64,000 nt of DNA from a bacterium HR11 (GTDB lineage: Bacteria; Acidobacteriota; HRBIN11). A program made the position numbers and the translations under genes. The notes below the pieces were generated by a model, which saw only the letters and a program-made list of their open reading frames with translations, searched no databases and was not told the origin of the DNA. Positions 4,054 through 34,325 of the stretch are shown piece after piece (position 1 is the first letter of the stretch; each line of letters begins with the position of its first letter). The stretch is taken from NCBI GenBank assembly GCA_002898535.1, contig BEHN01000009.1:1-64000 (forward strand), read 5' to 3'.

Positions 4054-4519
4054 AGTCGACGTCGTTCAGATCGTTCAGCAGATCCGTCGCCAGATCGAAG
4101 AACAGCACACCGAGCAGGCGACGGCCAGCCAGGTCCGTCAGGAAGTCCGGGACCGGCTCCTCATCCAGTGGCGCCAGCTCCCCTTCCCCGAGGACGTCAA
4201 GAAAGACGTGGCGGACCAACAGCTCCAGTGGCTTTTCGACCCCGAAGCGTTCTGGTTCTCCCGGCGGCCGGGATGGGGTCCTATCATCAACTTTTTCCGA
4301 CGCCTGTTCCGCCCCTTCGTGAAGCTCTTCTTCAACCCGGACCCCTTGCTTCACCACGTCCACCGGCTCAGCTACTTGGTCCAGTTCCAGACTCAGCTCA
4401 TCGAGGACCTCCTGGTCGAGCGGGAGCTCCTCCAACGGAAGGCCTCCGACCGAGGCCAGCCCCGGCGATTTGCCCGGTCGGGTCGGCGTCGAAAGCCCCC
4501 GGACCGGGGTACCCCTTAG
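4028..4519 (+). CDS. Hypothetical charged protein encoded before a glycosyltransferase
   Basis: I do not recognise this 163-residue protein by name. The N-terminal half is highly charged and helical (VVQIVQQIRRQIEEQ). A middle stretch RLFRPFVKLFFNPDPLLHHVHRLSYLVQF has an amphipathic look, and the tail is very basic. The FNPDPLLHHVHRL segment recalls helical regions near the ends of some sugar-modifying methyltransferases and glycosyltransferase partners. That resemblance is an impression only. It overlaps the CcmD-like gene, has its own GGAGG, and ends 20 nt before the glycosyltransferase start, so it is probably co-expressed with that enzyme. Confidence 0.6.
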   Translation: MEKRRSGPKVDVVQIVQQIRRQIEEQHTEQATASQVRQEVRDRLLIQWRQLPFPEDVKKDVADQQLQWLFDPEAFWFSRRPGWGPIINFFRRLFRPFVKLFFNPDPLLHHVHRLSYLVQFQTQLIEDLLVERELLQRKASDRGQPRRFARSGRRRKPPDRGTP

Positions 4520-6537: not shown

Positions 6538-7572
6538 ATGCGAGCCGTCGTCATCCGAGAACACGGGGGCCCGGAAGTCTTGCGGGTGGAAGAGCGACCC
6601 GTGCCGGACGTCGGGCCGGCCGACATCCGGGTTCGGGTCCGGGCCGTCGCCCTCAACCATCTGGACCTCTGGACCCGCCGGGGCATCCCGGGCGTGCGCC
6701 TCCCTCTGCCCATCGTCCCGGGCGCCGACGTCGCCGGCGTCGTCGACGCCGTCGGCGACCAGGTCCGTCACGTAAAGCCCGGCGATGCGGTCGTCCTCCA
6801 TCCGGCCGTCAGTTGCGGCGTCTGTCGGTTCTGCCTCCAGGGGGAGGACAACCGGTGCCGGGAATATAAGGTCCTGGGCCATCGGCGGGACGGCGGCTAC
6901 GCCGACTTCATCGTCGTCCCGGCCGTCAATGCGCTCCCCAAGCCGGCGGGTCTGACGTGGGAGGAGGCGGCCTCGATGCCCCTGGTCTTTCTCACGGCGT
7001 GGCACATGCTCGTGACCCTCGCCCGGCTCCGGCCGGCCGAGACGGTCCTCGTGATGGCCGCCGGGAGCGGCGTCGGCATCGCCGCCGTCCAGATCGCCCG
7101 GCTGATCGGGGCGACGGTCATCGCCACGGCCGGGACGGAGGCCAAGCGTCAGCGGCTTCGGGCCCTGGGCGCCGACCACGTCGTCGACCATTCGGACCCG
7201 GCGTGGCCCCAACGGGTCCTGGAACTGACGAACCGGGCCGGCGTGGACGTCGTCTTCGAGCACGTCGGCGAGGCCGTCTGGGACGGCGTCCTGCAGTGCC
7301 TCGGCTGGGGGGGTCGTCTCGTGACCTGCGGGGCCACGACGGGCGCCGAGGCCCGGCTGAACCTTCGGGCCCTCTTCGCCAAGCAGTGGCAGATCTACGG
7401 CTCTTACATGGGGACGCGGGGGGAGCTCCTGGCGCTGTGGCCCCTCGTCGAGCGGGGCGTCCTGCGGCCCGTCGTCGACCGGGTCTTCCCCCTGGAAGAG
7501 GCGGCCCAGGCCCACGCCTACATGGAGGCCCGTCAGCACTTCGGCAAGGTCGTCCTCCGCGTCAGTGCGTGA
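6538..7572 (+). CDS. Zinc-containing alcohol dehydrogenase (MDR superfamily)
   Basis: A 344-residue medium-chain dehydrogenase. The N-terminal GroES-like domain keeps the structural-zinc cysteines in CGVCRFCLQGEDNRC (about residues 92-106) and the GADVAGVV motif. The Rossmann domain has the glycine motif AAGSGVGIAAVQIA (about 181-194). At the usual first catalytic-zinc position the sequence is LNHLDLW, so Cys is replaced by His/Asp, as in quinone-oxidoreductase-like members. The enzyme probably reduces or oxidises a carbonyl compound with NAD(P)H in the cytosol. GGAGG precedes ATG 6538. It ends just before a repeat-filled gap. Confidence 0.87.
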   Translation: MRAVVIREHGGPEVLRVEERPVPDVGPADIRVRVRAVALNHLDLWTRRGIPGVRLPLPIVPGADVAGVVDAVGDQVRHVKPGDAVVLHPAVSCGVCRFCLQGEDNRCREYKVLGHRRDGGYADFIVVPAVNALPKPAGLTWEEAASMPLVFLTAWHMLVTLARLRPAETVLVMAAGSGVGIAAVQIARLIGATVIATAGTEAKRQRLRALGADHVVDHSDPAWPQRVLELTNRAGVDVVFEHVGEAVWDGVLQCLGWGGRLVTCGATTGAEARLNLRALFAKQWQIYGSYMGTRGELLALWPLVERGVLRPVVDRVFPLEEAAQAHAYMEARQHFGKVVLRVSA

Positions 7573-30254: not shown

Positions 30255-30403
30255 GGACCATGGACCATAGACCACGGACCTTAGACCTGTTTGGGTCTAT
30301 TCGGGGCTCTTTATCCCAGGACGGGAAGGCAGGGGCTTCCCAGGCATGTCTGGGGTCCGTAATCCATGGTCTATGGTCTATGGTCCATGGTCTATGGTCC
30401 ATA
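30255..30403. repeat. Inverted CCATAGA/GGTCTAT heptamer arrays (pcm-nfi gap)
   Basis: The left array (30255-30287) reads GGACCATGGACCATAGACC and onward. The right array (about 30354-30403) reads GGTCTATGGTCTATGGTCC and onward. They are reverse complements separated by about 66 bp containing TTCCCAGGCATGTCTGGGG. The right array overlaps the last codons of nfi, where a TAG within a heptamer serves as the stop. Confidence 0.75.
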
Positions 30404-31157
30404 CCTGCTTCCGCATGCGCTTGACCCACTGGTCGGCCTGCCGCTGGGGTTCGGGGAGCCGATAGCCGTCGCAACAATCGAGGACGATGGCGACGGCCCG
30501 CTCCAGGGAGACCCGATGGCCCGGCGAGACGTAGACGGGCCGCGTGCGGGGCCGCGTCGTCAGGACGGCCCCGATGACGGCACCGGTCCGGGGATGCCAC
30601 AGGGGGACCCACTGGCCGGCATTCAGGGCCGGTGCCTCGTGCCGACCGAAGAGTCGGCTCTTGCCGACGCCGACCGACGGCCAGTCCAGGAGGACGCCGA
30701 TGTGGCATGCGATGCCAAAGCCCCGCGGGTGGGCCGTGCCCTGACCGTCGACGAGCAGGACGTCCACGGGATGGTCGACCTGGGTCATCACCCGGAGGTA
30801 GCCCGGCGTCTCCCGGAAGGACAGAAAGCCGGGGACGTAGGGGAACTCCACGTCGGCCACGGCGACCCACCGACGGACGGTCGTCCGTTGAGCGGCGTCC
30901 CACAGGACGGCCCCGGCCACGATGCGCCGGCCACCCTCGACGAAAGCGCTGTCCAGGCCCAAGACCCAGCGCCACTGGGTCGGTCCGTCCTCGGTCCGGA
31001 CCCGTCGGGCCAGGGTCCACTGGAGGTTCCGGGCCTCTTTCAAGTCCGCCGGCATCCGCCACTGACGGAGGGCCTGCTGAGCGGCCTCGGCGAGACTCCG
31101 AGAGGCGTCTGTCCGTCTCGTGGCCGACTCCGCCCAGGGACCCATCGGGTGCGACAT
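30378..31157 (-). CDS. nfi: Endonuclease V
   Basis: From ATG 31157 (preceded by GAGAGGG) the product is 259 residues. It cleaves DNA near deoxyinosine. Motifs in order are WVLGLDSAFVEGG (first catalytic Asp), VADVEFPYVPGFLSFRETP (the strand-wedging PYV/PG and the Glu), VDVLLVDGQGTAHPRGFGIACHIG (second Asp, His) and SVGVGKSRLFG (Lys). All catalytic positions are kept. The last eight or so residues (VWTIDHGP) are read from the heptamer repeat that supplies the stop codon, so the native C-terminus has been altered by the repeat. Confidence 0.93.
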   Translation of the reverse strand: MSHPMGPWAESATRRTDASRSLAEAAQQALRQWRMPADLKEARNLQWTLARRVRTEDGPTQWRWVLGLDSAFVEGGRRIVAGAVLWDAAQRTTVRRWVAVADVEFPYVPGFLSFRETPGYLRVMTQVDHPVDVLLVDGQGTAHPRGFGIACHIGVLLDWPSVGVGKSRLFGRHEAPALNAGQWVPLWHPRTGAVIGAVLTTRPRTRPVYVSPGHRVSLERAVAIVLDCCDGYRLPEPQRQADQWVKRMRKQVWTIDHGP

Positions 31158-31186
31158 CGACGGCCCTCTCAAAAGGGACTCGGGAG

Positions 31187-31706
31187 TTCGGGAACCCGGG
31201 CATTCGGCAGTTGGCAGATGGGCAGGTAGGCCCTTTTTATCAGAGCCGCTCGGTTCGTAAAAACCCGCATGGATTCAGCCTTATTGGCTCATGGCTCGTG
31301 GCTCATATTAGCTCATGGGTCATAGCTCATGGCTCATAGTCCCATGAGCTATCAGCCATGAGCTATGAGCCAATAGGGGCCATCAGCTATGAGCCGTGAG
31401 CCAACATGGGCACGGACCCTTCGCTGTCTGCCGTCGGCTCGGCTCAAAGGGCTCGAGCCTGTTTCAAAACTCACCGCCGAGGCGCAGAGGACGAGGGTTT
31501 TCCTTCGATTTTTCTCTGCGTTCTCGGCGTCTCAGCGGTGAAATGTCTCGGCAAAGCCAGTCCCATCAGGATGCTCGCGGACGGAACGGTTCGGTGGGCG
31601 TAGTCCGCAAGGGCGCCCGCCGGACGGTGGACTTCCCGACCCGCCCGAGCTGCCGGACTCCCGAATTCCTGAACTCCCGGACTCCCGAATTCCCGAACTC
31701 CCGAAT
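31187..31706. repeat. Left arm of a ~520-bp inverted repeat
   Basis: The arm matches 32749-33275 in reverse complement over its whole length, with scattered substitutions and a few small indels. Outside to inside it holds TTCGGGAACCCGGG, a CAGRTNGG-type octamer run, the CAGAGCCGCTCGG end at 31241, ATGGCTC heptamers in inverted order (about 31285-31400), a CACCGCCGAGGCGCAGAG palindrome (about 31471-31546), and CCCGAAYT-type octamers (about 31654-31706). Differences include one ATGGCTC-type unit present here and missing in the other arm. Confidence 0.88.
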
Positions 31707-32269
31707 GACTCGGCCGTCCGCTGAAACAAGTATACCACATCGTCGCCGTGGGCGAGAGTCCCGTAGAGGGTCCAGCCGGTGGCCCTCGGCGCTGGACTCT
31801 TCTTAAACCGCTGGACTCCCAGGCGGGCGTCGTTCCTCGTCCAGTCGTACCGGACCAGTCGTTCCAGGACGGCCTCCAGACGGGGCGTCGGAAAATCGTA
31901 AGGCGGTCCCAGAAAGACCCAGTCCATCGGCACGGCCGGCGGCCGGGTCAAGACCCGCTGGATGTCCCCGACCCGCACGTCCGTCCGGTCGGCGAGGCCC
32001 AGACGCCGCAGGTTCTGCTCCAGAAGACGGGCGACCCGGGGGTCCTTCTCGATAAAGACCACGTGGGAAGCCCCCAGGCTGAGGGCATAGATGCCCATGA
32101 GGCCTGTCCCGGCAAAACCGTCCATGAAATGGCAGGCCTCGATGGTCGGGCCGGCGTGGGAGAAGAAGGCCTCTCGAAGCCGGGCCGGCAGGGGTCGGTA
32201 AGGCAGGTCCGGCCGGGTTTCAATCCACCGACCCCGCAGGCGGCCCATCGTGACCCGGATGCGCGACAA
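31532..32269 (-). CDS. rsmD: RsmD-like RNA methyltransferase with a repeat-encoded C-terminal tail
   Basis: A 245-residue frame. Residues 1-187 are RsmD-like: an N-terminal GRLRGRWI...RPLPARLREAFF region (substrate-side RPT-x-x-x-RE equivalent), SAM motif I FMDGFAGTGLMGIYALSLGA, the acidic FIEKDPRVARLLEQNL, and the catalytic loop FLGPPYDF, which has Gly where the family has Asp or Asn ([DN]PPY). RsmD methylates 16S rRNA G966. From about residue 188 the sequence (AESFGSSGIRESGSSG...) is translated octamer and palindrome DNA from the left inverted-repeat arm, so the native stop has been lost. Whether the tail is tolerated or the gene is decaying is unclear. Confidence 0.75.
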   Translation of the reverse strand: MSRIRVTMGRLRGRWIETRPDLPYRPLPARLREAFFSHAGPTIEACHFMDGFAGTGLMGIYALSLGASHVVFIEKDPRVARLLEQNLRRLGLADRTDVRVGDIQRVLTRPPAVPMDWVFLGPPYDFPTPRLEAVLERLVRYDWTRNDARLGVQRFKKSPAPRATGWTLYGTLAHGDDVVYLFQRTAESFGSSGIRESGSSGIRESGSSGGSGSPPSGGRPCGLRPPNRSVREHPDGTGFAETFHR

Positions 32270-32747
32270 GGGACGTCCCCCGCAAACAGGAATCGATGAA
32301 GACCAAGCCTCGGATCAGGCGGACGGCGCCCCGAAGTTCGGCGGCGGTCAGGATGCCCGTCAGGCCGACGACGGTCCAGGCCGACGCCCGGTGAAGGCCC
32401 GTCGGGACCTGTCCGACGGCCCGGGCCATCCCCGTGAAGAGGGGGACCATCCAGAGGGGCAGGCCCAGGGCCATCCACGGAAACAGCCGGTTCCGCCACC
32501 GGCGGAGAGATTCGACGGTCGCCTGCAGGTCGGGACGGCCCGCCGCCTGCTCCCGGACCTGTCGGGTCAGGGCCATCCACATGAAGAGGGTCATCGACTG
32601 GATCAGCATGTTCCAGAGGGCGACGCCCAGCCCGGCCAAGACGTGAGTGGACAGACCGGTCCATCCGAGGGTCTGGCCGAGGGCCAACCCCAGCCATGCC
32701 AGCCACCCGAGGAGCGCGCCGCAACTCAAGCCGATGACCATCCGCAT
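32220..32747 (-). CDS. Hypothetical four-span membrane protein
   Basis: From ATG 32747 the product is 175 residues. Hydrophobic spans are visible at about 3-25 (VIGLSCGALLGWLAWLGLAL), 33-58 (HVLAGLGVALWNMLIQSMTLFMW), 88-108 (FPWMALGLPLWMVPLFTGMA) and 120-140. I do not recognise the family. Its start lies two bases from the inner edge of the right inverted-repeat arm, and no ribosome binding site is visible. The ORF open upstream to 33062 is translated repeat DNA. Its 3' end overlaps the methyltransferase start by 50 nt, so the two are co-transcribed. Confidence 0.6.
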   Translation of the reverse strand: MRMVIGLSCGALLGWLAWLGLALGQTLGWTGLSTHVLAGLGVALWNMLIQSMTLFMWMALTRQVREQAAGRPDLQATVESLRRWRNRLFPWMALGLPLWMVPLFTGMARAVGQVPTGLHRASAWTVVGLTGILTAAELRGAVRLIRGLVFIDSCLRGTSLVAHPGHDGPPAGSVD

Positions 32748-32748
32748 G

Positions 32749-33275
32749 ATTCGGGAGTTCGGCAGTTCGGGAATTCGGGAGTCGGGGAATTCGGCAGTCC
32801 GGGAGTTCGGGAATTCGGGAGTCCGGCAGTTCGGGCGGGTCGGGAAGTCCACCGTCCGGCGGGCCCACGCCCACCGAGCCGTTCCGTCGGTGAGCATCTT
32901 GACGGGACCGGCTTTGCCGAGACATTTCACCGCCGAGACGCCGAGAACGCAGAGAAAAATCGAAGGAAAAACCCTCGTCCTCTGCGCCTCGGCGGTGAGT
33001 TTTGAAACAGACTCGAGCCTTTGGGCCGAGCCGACGGCAGACAGCGAAGGGTCCGTGCCCATGTTGGCTCACGGCTCATAGCGGATGGCCCCTATTGGCT
33101 CATAGCTCATGGCTGATAGATCATGGGACTGTGAGCCATGAGCTATGACCCATGAGCTAATATGAGCCATGAGCCAATAAGGCATGAATCCATGCGGGTT
33201 TTTACGAACCGAGCGGCTCTGATAAAAAGGGCCTACCTGCCCATCTGCCAACTGCCGAATGCCCGGGTTCCCGAA
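32749..33275. repeat. Right arm of the ~520-bp inverted repeat
   Basis: This arm is the reverse complement of 31187-31706. It fills nearly all of the 549-bp gene-free gap between the membrane protein and lpxD. From the inside out it holds about eleven TTCGGGAR octamers (32750-32850), a CACCGCCGAGGCGCAGAG palindrome (about 32926-32999), inverted ATGGCTC heptamers (about 33066-33175), the GAGCGGCTCTG end at 33221, and a CAGRTNGG-type run. Another short TTCGGCAR octamer run continues to the lpxD stop. Confidence 0.88.
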
Positions 33276-33296
33276 TTGCCGAACTGCCGAATTGCC

Positions 33297-34325
33297 CTAC
33301 TCCCCCCACATCCGGTCCCACCGGCGGAACTTCTCCAGCCACCGGGGAAGTTCCCGCAGAAAGGCATGAATCCGAAGCCACAGGGCCCGCTCGACGGCCG
33401 GGGAACCGGCCATGACCTTGCCGGGCGGCACGTTCCCCGTGATGCCCGTCTGAGCCGCCAGCCGGACGTCGTCCCCGACGGTTACATGGTCCGGTACGCC
33501 GGCCTGCCCGCCCATCCAGACCCGATGGCCGATACGGGAGCTCCCGGCGATGCCCGCCTGGGCCGCAATCAGGCAGGCCCGCCCGATGGACACATTGTGG
33601 GCGACCTGCACGAGGTTGTCGATCTTGGTACCGGCCCCGATGCGGGTCTCGCCCAGGAAGGCCCGGTCGACACACGTATTCGCCCCGATCTCCACGTCGT
33701 CCTCGATGACGACCCGCCCGAGTTGGGGCACCTTGACGGGTCGCTCCGGATGGGGAATGAACCGAAAGCCGTCCCCGCCCAGGACCGCCCCGGCGTGCAC
33801 GATGACCCGCCGCCCGACTCGGACCCGGGGATAGACGACGACGCCCGCATGGAGGACGCTTTCAGGCCCGACCTCGGCATCCCCGTAAAGGACGCAGTGA
33901 CCCATCAACTGAGCGCCTTCGTGAATCCGCACGCCGGGACCCACGTAGCAAAAAGGCCCGACCCAGGCCGTCGGATGAACCTCGGCCGCCGGGTCGACCT
34001 GCGCCGTCGGGTGAAGGCCCTGCCGGACCGGCGCCAGCCCCAGCCACTCGGCCAGGACCCACAGGACGGCGACGGGGTCCGGATGCAGGACCCACGTCGC
34101 GTCCGGTCGGACGGCCTCGGCCCCCGGGGCGGCGACGACGACGCCGGCCTGCGTGACGGCGACGGCGTCCCGGTGTCGTGGGTCCAACAGGACCGTCAGG
34201 TGTTCAGGCGCCGCCGTCGCTGGTTCGGCCACGTCGAAAAATGTCCGGCCCGGGTCCCCGACGACGGCGGCACCTGCGGCTTGGGCCAACTCATCGGCTG
34301 TCCACGGCGGCGGATGGGACACCAT
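33297..34325 (-). CDS. lpxD: UDP-3-O-(3-hydroxyacyl)glucosamine N-acyltransferase
   Basis: A 342-residue LpxD, third enzyme of lipid A synthesis, cytosolic trimer. The N-terminal uridine-binding region (1-100) is followed by hexapeptide repeats forming a left-handed beta helix. The catalytic His is most likely in VAHNVSIG, and nearby markers are [45 protein letters not shown] and [28 protein letters not shown]. The C-terminal helix ([21 protein letters not shown]) matches the ACP-binding end. GAGGAG precedes the ATG. It shows that the organism makes LPS or a lipid-A-like lipid. No other lpx genes are in the window. Confidence 0.95.

Follow-up and report, generated by a model that had tools for sequence, protein, structure and literature searches.

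Positions 31,187 to 33,275 of the window (the whole stretch of 64,000 nucleotides analysed here) hold two genes between inverted repeats of about 520 bp. The arrangement raises the question of whether the genes arrived as a mobile unit, whether they form a segment that can be flipped, or whether they were already in place when the repeats accumulated on either side. We consider the last of these quite likely: the genes are residents that have come to lie between a stack of repeat debris and its inverted copy in the neighbouring spacer, and cassette movement is not involved. The arms are real and visually striking, and they are explained by dispersed intergenic repeats.

The source genome (G000) is an Acidobacteriota MAG of 2,988,257 bases in 49 contigs, 95% complete; about 1.24 Mb of it was read, and the repeat statistics are derived from the first 843 kb. 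It was compared with two genomes of the same genus, G001 and G002 (isolate SKYB104, a named MAG that is 87% complete), and with nine other genomes of the phylum. All three genomes of the genus are multi-contig drafts, and G001 breaks at contig ends within both of the central genes, its synteny being pieced together from two contigs.

Organization of the locus

The features discussed below are as follows.

30378..31172, reverse strand, endonuclease V gene (nfi), flanking resident, syntenic
31178..31193, forward strand, outer octamer array of the left arm, GGGAATTC-type, forward half
31180..31706, forward strand, left arm, a composite intergenic repeat stack in the nfi/rsmD-like spacer
31241..31411, forward strand, MITE left half in the left arm: TIR CAGAGCCGCTCGGTTCGT and GCTCAT-array hairpin, the usual right half missing
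31471..31543, forward strand, left-arm palindrome CACCGCCGAGGCGCAGAG...CTCGGCGTCTCAGCGGTG, a dispersed module
31651..31706, reverse strand, inner octamer array of the left arm, inverted half
31730..32269, reverse strand, core of the RsmD-like methyltransferase gene, resident; the open frame runs into the left arm to 31532
32220..32747, reverse strand, small membrane protein gene (175 aa), resident; weak, sub-threshold LNT_N match
32749..33282, reverse strand, right arm, inverted copy of the left-arm stack, in the membrane-gene/lpxD spacer
32749..32828, forward strand, inner octamer array of the right arm
32927..32998, reverse strand, right-arm copy of the CACCGCCGAGGCGCAGAG...CTCGGCGTCTCAGCGGTG palindrome
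33051..33221, reverse strand, MITE left half in the right arm, as in the left arm; start placed from the arm alignment
33269..33292, reverse strand, outer octamer array of the right arm
33297..34325, reverse strand, lpxD, flanking resident, syntenic

Beyond lpxD and nfi lie a gene for a SurA-like PPIase and pcm, respectively. The first-pass annotation had read the centre as a membrane-protein gene and an RsmD-like gene, and both identifications hold, the core of the latter matching Pfam Cons_hypoth95 with E 3e-29. A small correction is that genes and arms overlap, the rsmD-like frame reaching into the left arm.

Positions 31180-31706 align with the reverse complement of 32773-33282 over 529 columns, with 489 matches, 19 mismatches and 6 indels. 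The identity is 96.3% ungapped and 92.3% gapped, the longest identical run is 91 bp, and the match (E ~ 4e-222) is far beyond chance. This agrees with the earlier description of arms of about 520 bp with few differences, as does the finding that the repeat families are stacked in an identical order in both; the right arm is lengthened to 32749 by octamer arrays. A search for the stacked arm elsewhere in G000 (2.99 Mb) returned just these two full-length copies, 1.6 kb apart. Its sub-modules, by contrast, are dispersed, dozens of sites matching parts of the arm. The recurring parts are arm positions ~59-232, comprising the MITE left end and the GCTCAT hairpin, and ~276-366, comprising the CGCAGAG palindrome; the octamer arrays at both arm ends also recur across the genome, and it is within such arrays that homology ends at both ends of both arms. 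G000 also has composite repeats of 260-590 bp at other, unlinked sites, the two orientations being about equally frequent. For structured RNA in the arms, Rfam gave only sub-threshold matches to microRNA models (scores of 20-37 against gathering thresholds of 59-90), which we attribute to the arm hairpin.

The locus in related genomes

A single 9-kb contig of G002 carries the surA-like gene, lpxD, the membrane gene, the rsmD-like gene, the endonuclease V gene and pcm in the order and orientation seen in G000, and it has no arms. Window positions 31723-32771 align end to end with G002 L059 6130-7178 at 80% identity, the flanking lpxD and nfi genes being 87% and 84% identical. The G002 spacers on either side of the gene pair, of ~170 and ~240 bp, are different in sequence and contain no arm. 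The first-pass annotation had proposed looking for joint absence of the two genes in relatives; both are present in G002, and the G001 contigs agree. It had also held that its cassette would be contradicted by relatives with the genes and without arms, together with a lack of mixed orientations in reads: G002 is such a relative, which bears out the first of these two points.

In G001 the spacer between lpxD and the membrane gene is ~35 bp long and consists of octamer units (...TAG GGCGGTTCGGCCCGAATTCCCGAATTCCCGAATC ATG...). The flanking alignments meet at one base at this point, where G000 carries 514 extra bp. The nfi/rsmD spacer of G001, which is on the other contig, is ~150 bp in length and made up mainly of octamer-like arrays. 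Related octamer arrays are found at the same places in G001, and degenerate remnants of them in G002.

Since the genes are resident in relatives that lack the arms, they did not come with the arms, which are additions of the G000 lineage. Gene order marks the pair as long-standing members of a conserved run, all on one strand, of surA-like, lpxD, membrane gene, rsmD-like, nfi and pcm. The lpxD DNA of G000 and G001 is 91% identical (9% divergence), and the arms differ from each other by 3.7% substitutions, from which it follows that the arm duplication is younger than the split between these two genomes.

A genus-restricted MITE-like family

The ends that the first-pass annotation had assigned to its cassette, CAGAGCCGCTCGG, represent a variant of CAGAGCCGTTCGGTTCGTGA, the TIR of a MITE-like family confined to this genus. 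With up to 4 mismatches allowed, CAGAGCCGTTCGGTTCGTGA has 130 matches in 843 kb of G000 and 1 in the reversed sequence. Elements with the CAGAGCCGTTCGG TIR form 34 convergent +/- pairs in the same 843 kb, with a modal length of 258-260 bp, and 13 of these pairs have identical 4-bp flanks where 2.9 would be expected (permutation mean; 0 of 20000 shuffles reach 13). These flanks are often TTAA, CTAA, ATAA or TTAT. Near-exact TIRs (up to 2 mismatches, whole genomes) number 337 in G000, 153 in G001 and 2 in G002, and none occur in the nine other genomes.

One subfamily of ~260 bp has copies in G000 (C1:266928-267191, C1:319036-319300, C1:45234-45497, C2:242860-243127 and C9:94617-94880) that are 93-95% identical and have 4-bp target duplications, which marks it as recently active. 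A complete element of the subfamily present in the arms is located at L004 on contig C6 of G000, with both TIRs around the GCTCAT hairpin; the arms themselves are not complete members, as the left half is followed by other repeat material.

In its TIR of ~20 bp, modal length of ~260 bp, 4-bp target duplication and hundreds of TIR copies, the family resembles other bacterial MITEs. Its elements are likewise mostly intergenic with no gene inside. It differs in its internal hairpin, which varies by copy and is built of GGCAGATG, GCTCAT or GGTCTAT arrays, and the arms differ from bacterial MITEs in that each has only half of one. Pfam models DDE_Tnp_1, DDE_5 and Y1_Tnp detected no transposase in G000, and IS4-, IS701- and IS200-type transposases were rejected as the driver, none having been found in that genome. 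No description of this family was found in the open-access literature on bacterial MITEs, intergenic palindromes, heptameric repeats and Acidobacteria. What is new at this locus is the genus-restricted MITE-like family and the inverted spacer duplication, both of kinds already known; the locus brings to light, in a genus of the Acidobacteriota, hundreds of TIR copies along with paired heptamer and octamer hairpins.

Tandem arrays and palindromes

The source genome is rich in tandem arrays of 7- and 8-bp units, mainly intergenic (e.g., C9:80299-81565). Neighbouring arrays favour one inverted order, found in 21/27 cases for the GGGAATTC type, 18/23 for the GGCAGATG type, 14/14 for the GCTCAT type and 20/23 for the GGTCTAT type, the corresponding polarity counts being 21:3, 18:1, 14:0 and 20:1. 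Heptamers and other tandem repeats of 6-9 nt have been described in bacteria (PMC4692102). The G000 arrays are similar in being abundant intergenic units of 7 and 8 nt, and differ in forming inverted pairs of fixed polarity.

Repeat modules were nested in 30 cases, side by side in 7 and crossing in 2. This prompted the idea that new repeats enter the centres of palindromes ("onion growth"), which was unsupported on 25 clean G000/G001 indels: the empty sites had a mean palindrome score of 15.0 against 15.6 for random intergenic sites (p = 0.82). REP, BIME and REPIN sequences are intergenic palindromes that serve as targets of insertion sequences (PMC1525189, PMC2817692; PMC3116915 for REPINs), with REPs in this role covered in PMC1525189, and they show, as a precedent, that mobile elements can land in palindromes outside genes. 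The arms likewise stack dispersed intergenic palindromic modules into composites, but they are built with heptamer and octamer tandem arrays instead of REPs of 20-40 bp; in addition, G000 has no RAYT (Y1) transposase, and the test described above gave no sign that insertions generally favour the centres of palindromes.

Repeats in other Acidobacteriota genomes of the same class and phylum (L043-L048 and L051-L055) match part of the CACCGCCGAGGCGCAGAG palindrome (window 31471-31543). These matches indicate that the module is older and more widespread than the MITE.

Origin of the arms

Under the reading we prefer, that of resident genes between a stack and its inverted copy, composite debris (octamer arrays, a truncated MITE left half, the GCTCAT-array hairpin and the CGCAGAG palindrome) would have built up in one of the two spacers. 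It would then have been copied recently, in inverted form, into the spacer across the gene pair. The copying may have proceeded by recombination, gene conversion or replication template-switching, with octamer arrays that both spacers already contained as the anchor; as inverted pairs, such arrays can align in either orientation. They are also so common that finding breakpoints within them says little in favour of recombination by this route.

The first-pass annotation had left two readings open, and the inverted copying of one stacked repeat is the one that stands, arm homology extending beyond the TIR. The other reading, that the two genes and the arms entered as a unit with CAGAGCC ends, as in a compound MITE-ended transposon, is extremely improbable. 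Its appeal lies in the two MITE TIRs, which face outward (31241 on the forward strand and 33221 on the reverse strand) in a geometry like that of compound transposon ends and belong to a truly mobile family with 4-bp target duplications. Against this, the genes occupy the same site and orientation in the armless G002, arm homology carries on past the CAGAGCC end for another ~60 bp, and the 4-mers beside the TIRs, TTAT and ATAA, are inverted and constitute no direct target duplication. Each arm, moreover, contains just a MITE left half, and the genome lacks transposases of the three Pfam families sought. We rejected a transposed cassette on the synteny in relatives, the homology past the TIR and the missing target duplication, and we rejected MITE transposition alone because the duplicated block passes the TIR on the outside by ~60 bp and has no complete right TIR inside. 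Symmetric arms around genes by themselves point to neither a mobile unit nor a switch, and a striking inverted-repeat "cassette" can come from repeat debris alone.

That a mobile, MITE-like composite of ~520 bp inserted twice independently, in opposite orientations by chance, is unlikely. The composites at unlinked places in G000, in about equal orientations, are what such a process might leave behind, yet the only full-length copies are the two at this locus; the arm ends have neither a TIR pair nor a target duplication, and they consist of octamer arrays that the relatives also carry there.

Recombination between the arms could, as a further alternative, flip the centre in part of the population and switch both genes relative to their neighbours. 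Arms of this length, with their high identity and long identical run, are sufficient for homologous recombination, and a flip would uncouple the genes from neighbours whose strand they share on both sides. We nevertheless regard an invertible segment as quite improbable: the centre is assembled in its ancestral orientation, that of G002, the arms are recent and missing in relatives, and a housekeeping-type methyltransferase with a small membrane protein is untypical phase-variable cargo. A non-exhaustive scan of the neighbourhood showed no invertase next to the arms. As in chromosomal inversions between inverted repeats, a short segment is enclosed by long repeats in inverted orientation; the difference is that this locus gives no evidence of flipping. 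The arms could in principle serve RecA-type recombination as a substrate for inverting the 1-kb centre; nothing indicates that such inversion occurs or is used.

To return to the copying of a stack between two spacers, a broader version of it would be local concerted evolution, in which intergenic spacers lying close together trade their repeats, with paired octamer arrays at the spacer edges as recombination handles for either orientation. Both G002 spacers share one element, in direct orientation (L059 5975-6118 and 7224-7363), of which G002 has no third copy; it differs from the arms of G000, which are inverted. That two species carry unrelated pairs in the same spacers hints at exchange between neighbouring spacers. 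As a general habit, local duplication showed no clear excess in the G000 sample, where 14 of 444 intergenic repeat pairs lie within 5 kb and ~11 would be expected; with this result, and with G002 at 87% completeness, we hold such exchange to be rather doubtful.

The RsmD-like gene and its C-terminus

RsmD is the methyltransferase for m2G966 of 16S rRNA, and the usual motif in the family of RsmD-like enzymes is (N/D)PPY. The best NCBIfam model for the protein encoded here is RsmD (TIGR00095), at 102.7 bits and under the cut-off of 117.5. G000 yielded no other strong homologue of RsmD. At the catalytic motif, G000 and G002 have GPPY, and the relatives from the phylum in which the motif was found have DPPY or DPPF.

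In G000, G001 and G002 alike, the rsmD-like frame continues without a stop at its conserved end. The resulting tails lie at 31532-31730 of the window (reverse strand), at 7172-7425 of G002 L059, where the open frame amounts to 288 aa, and at 4225-4275 of G001 L058, where the tail is short. The open frames predict three different repeat-derived C-termini on the rsmD-like gene in the three species, so that spacer turnover at this locus would have given one conserved gene a different tail in each.
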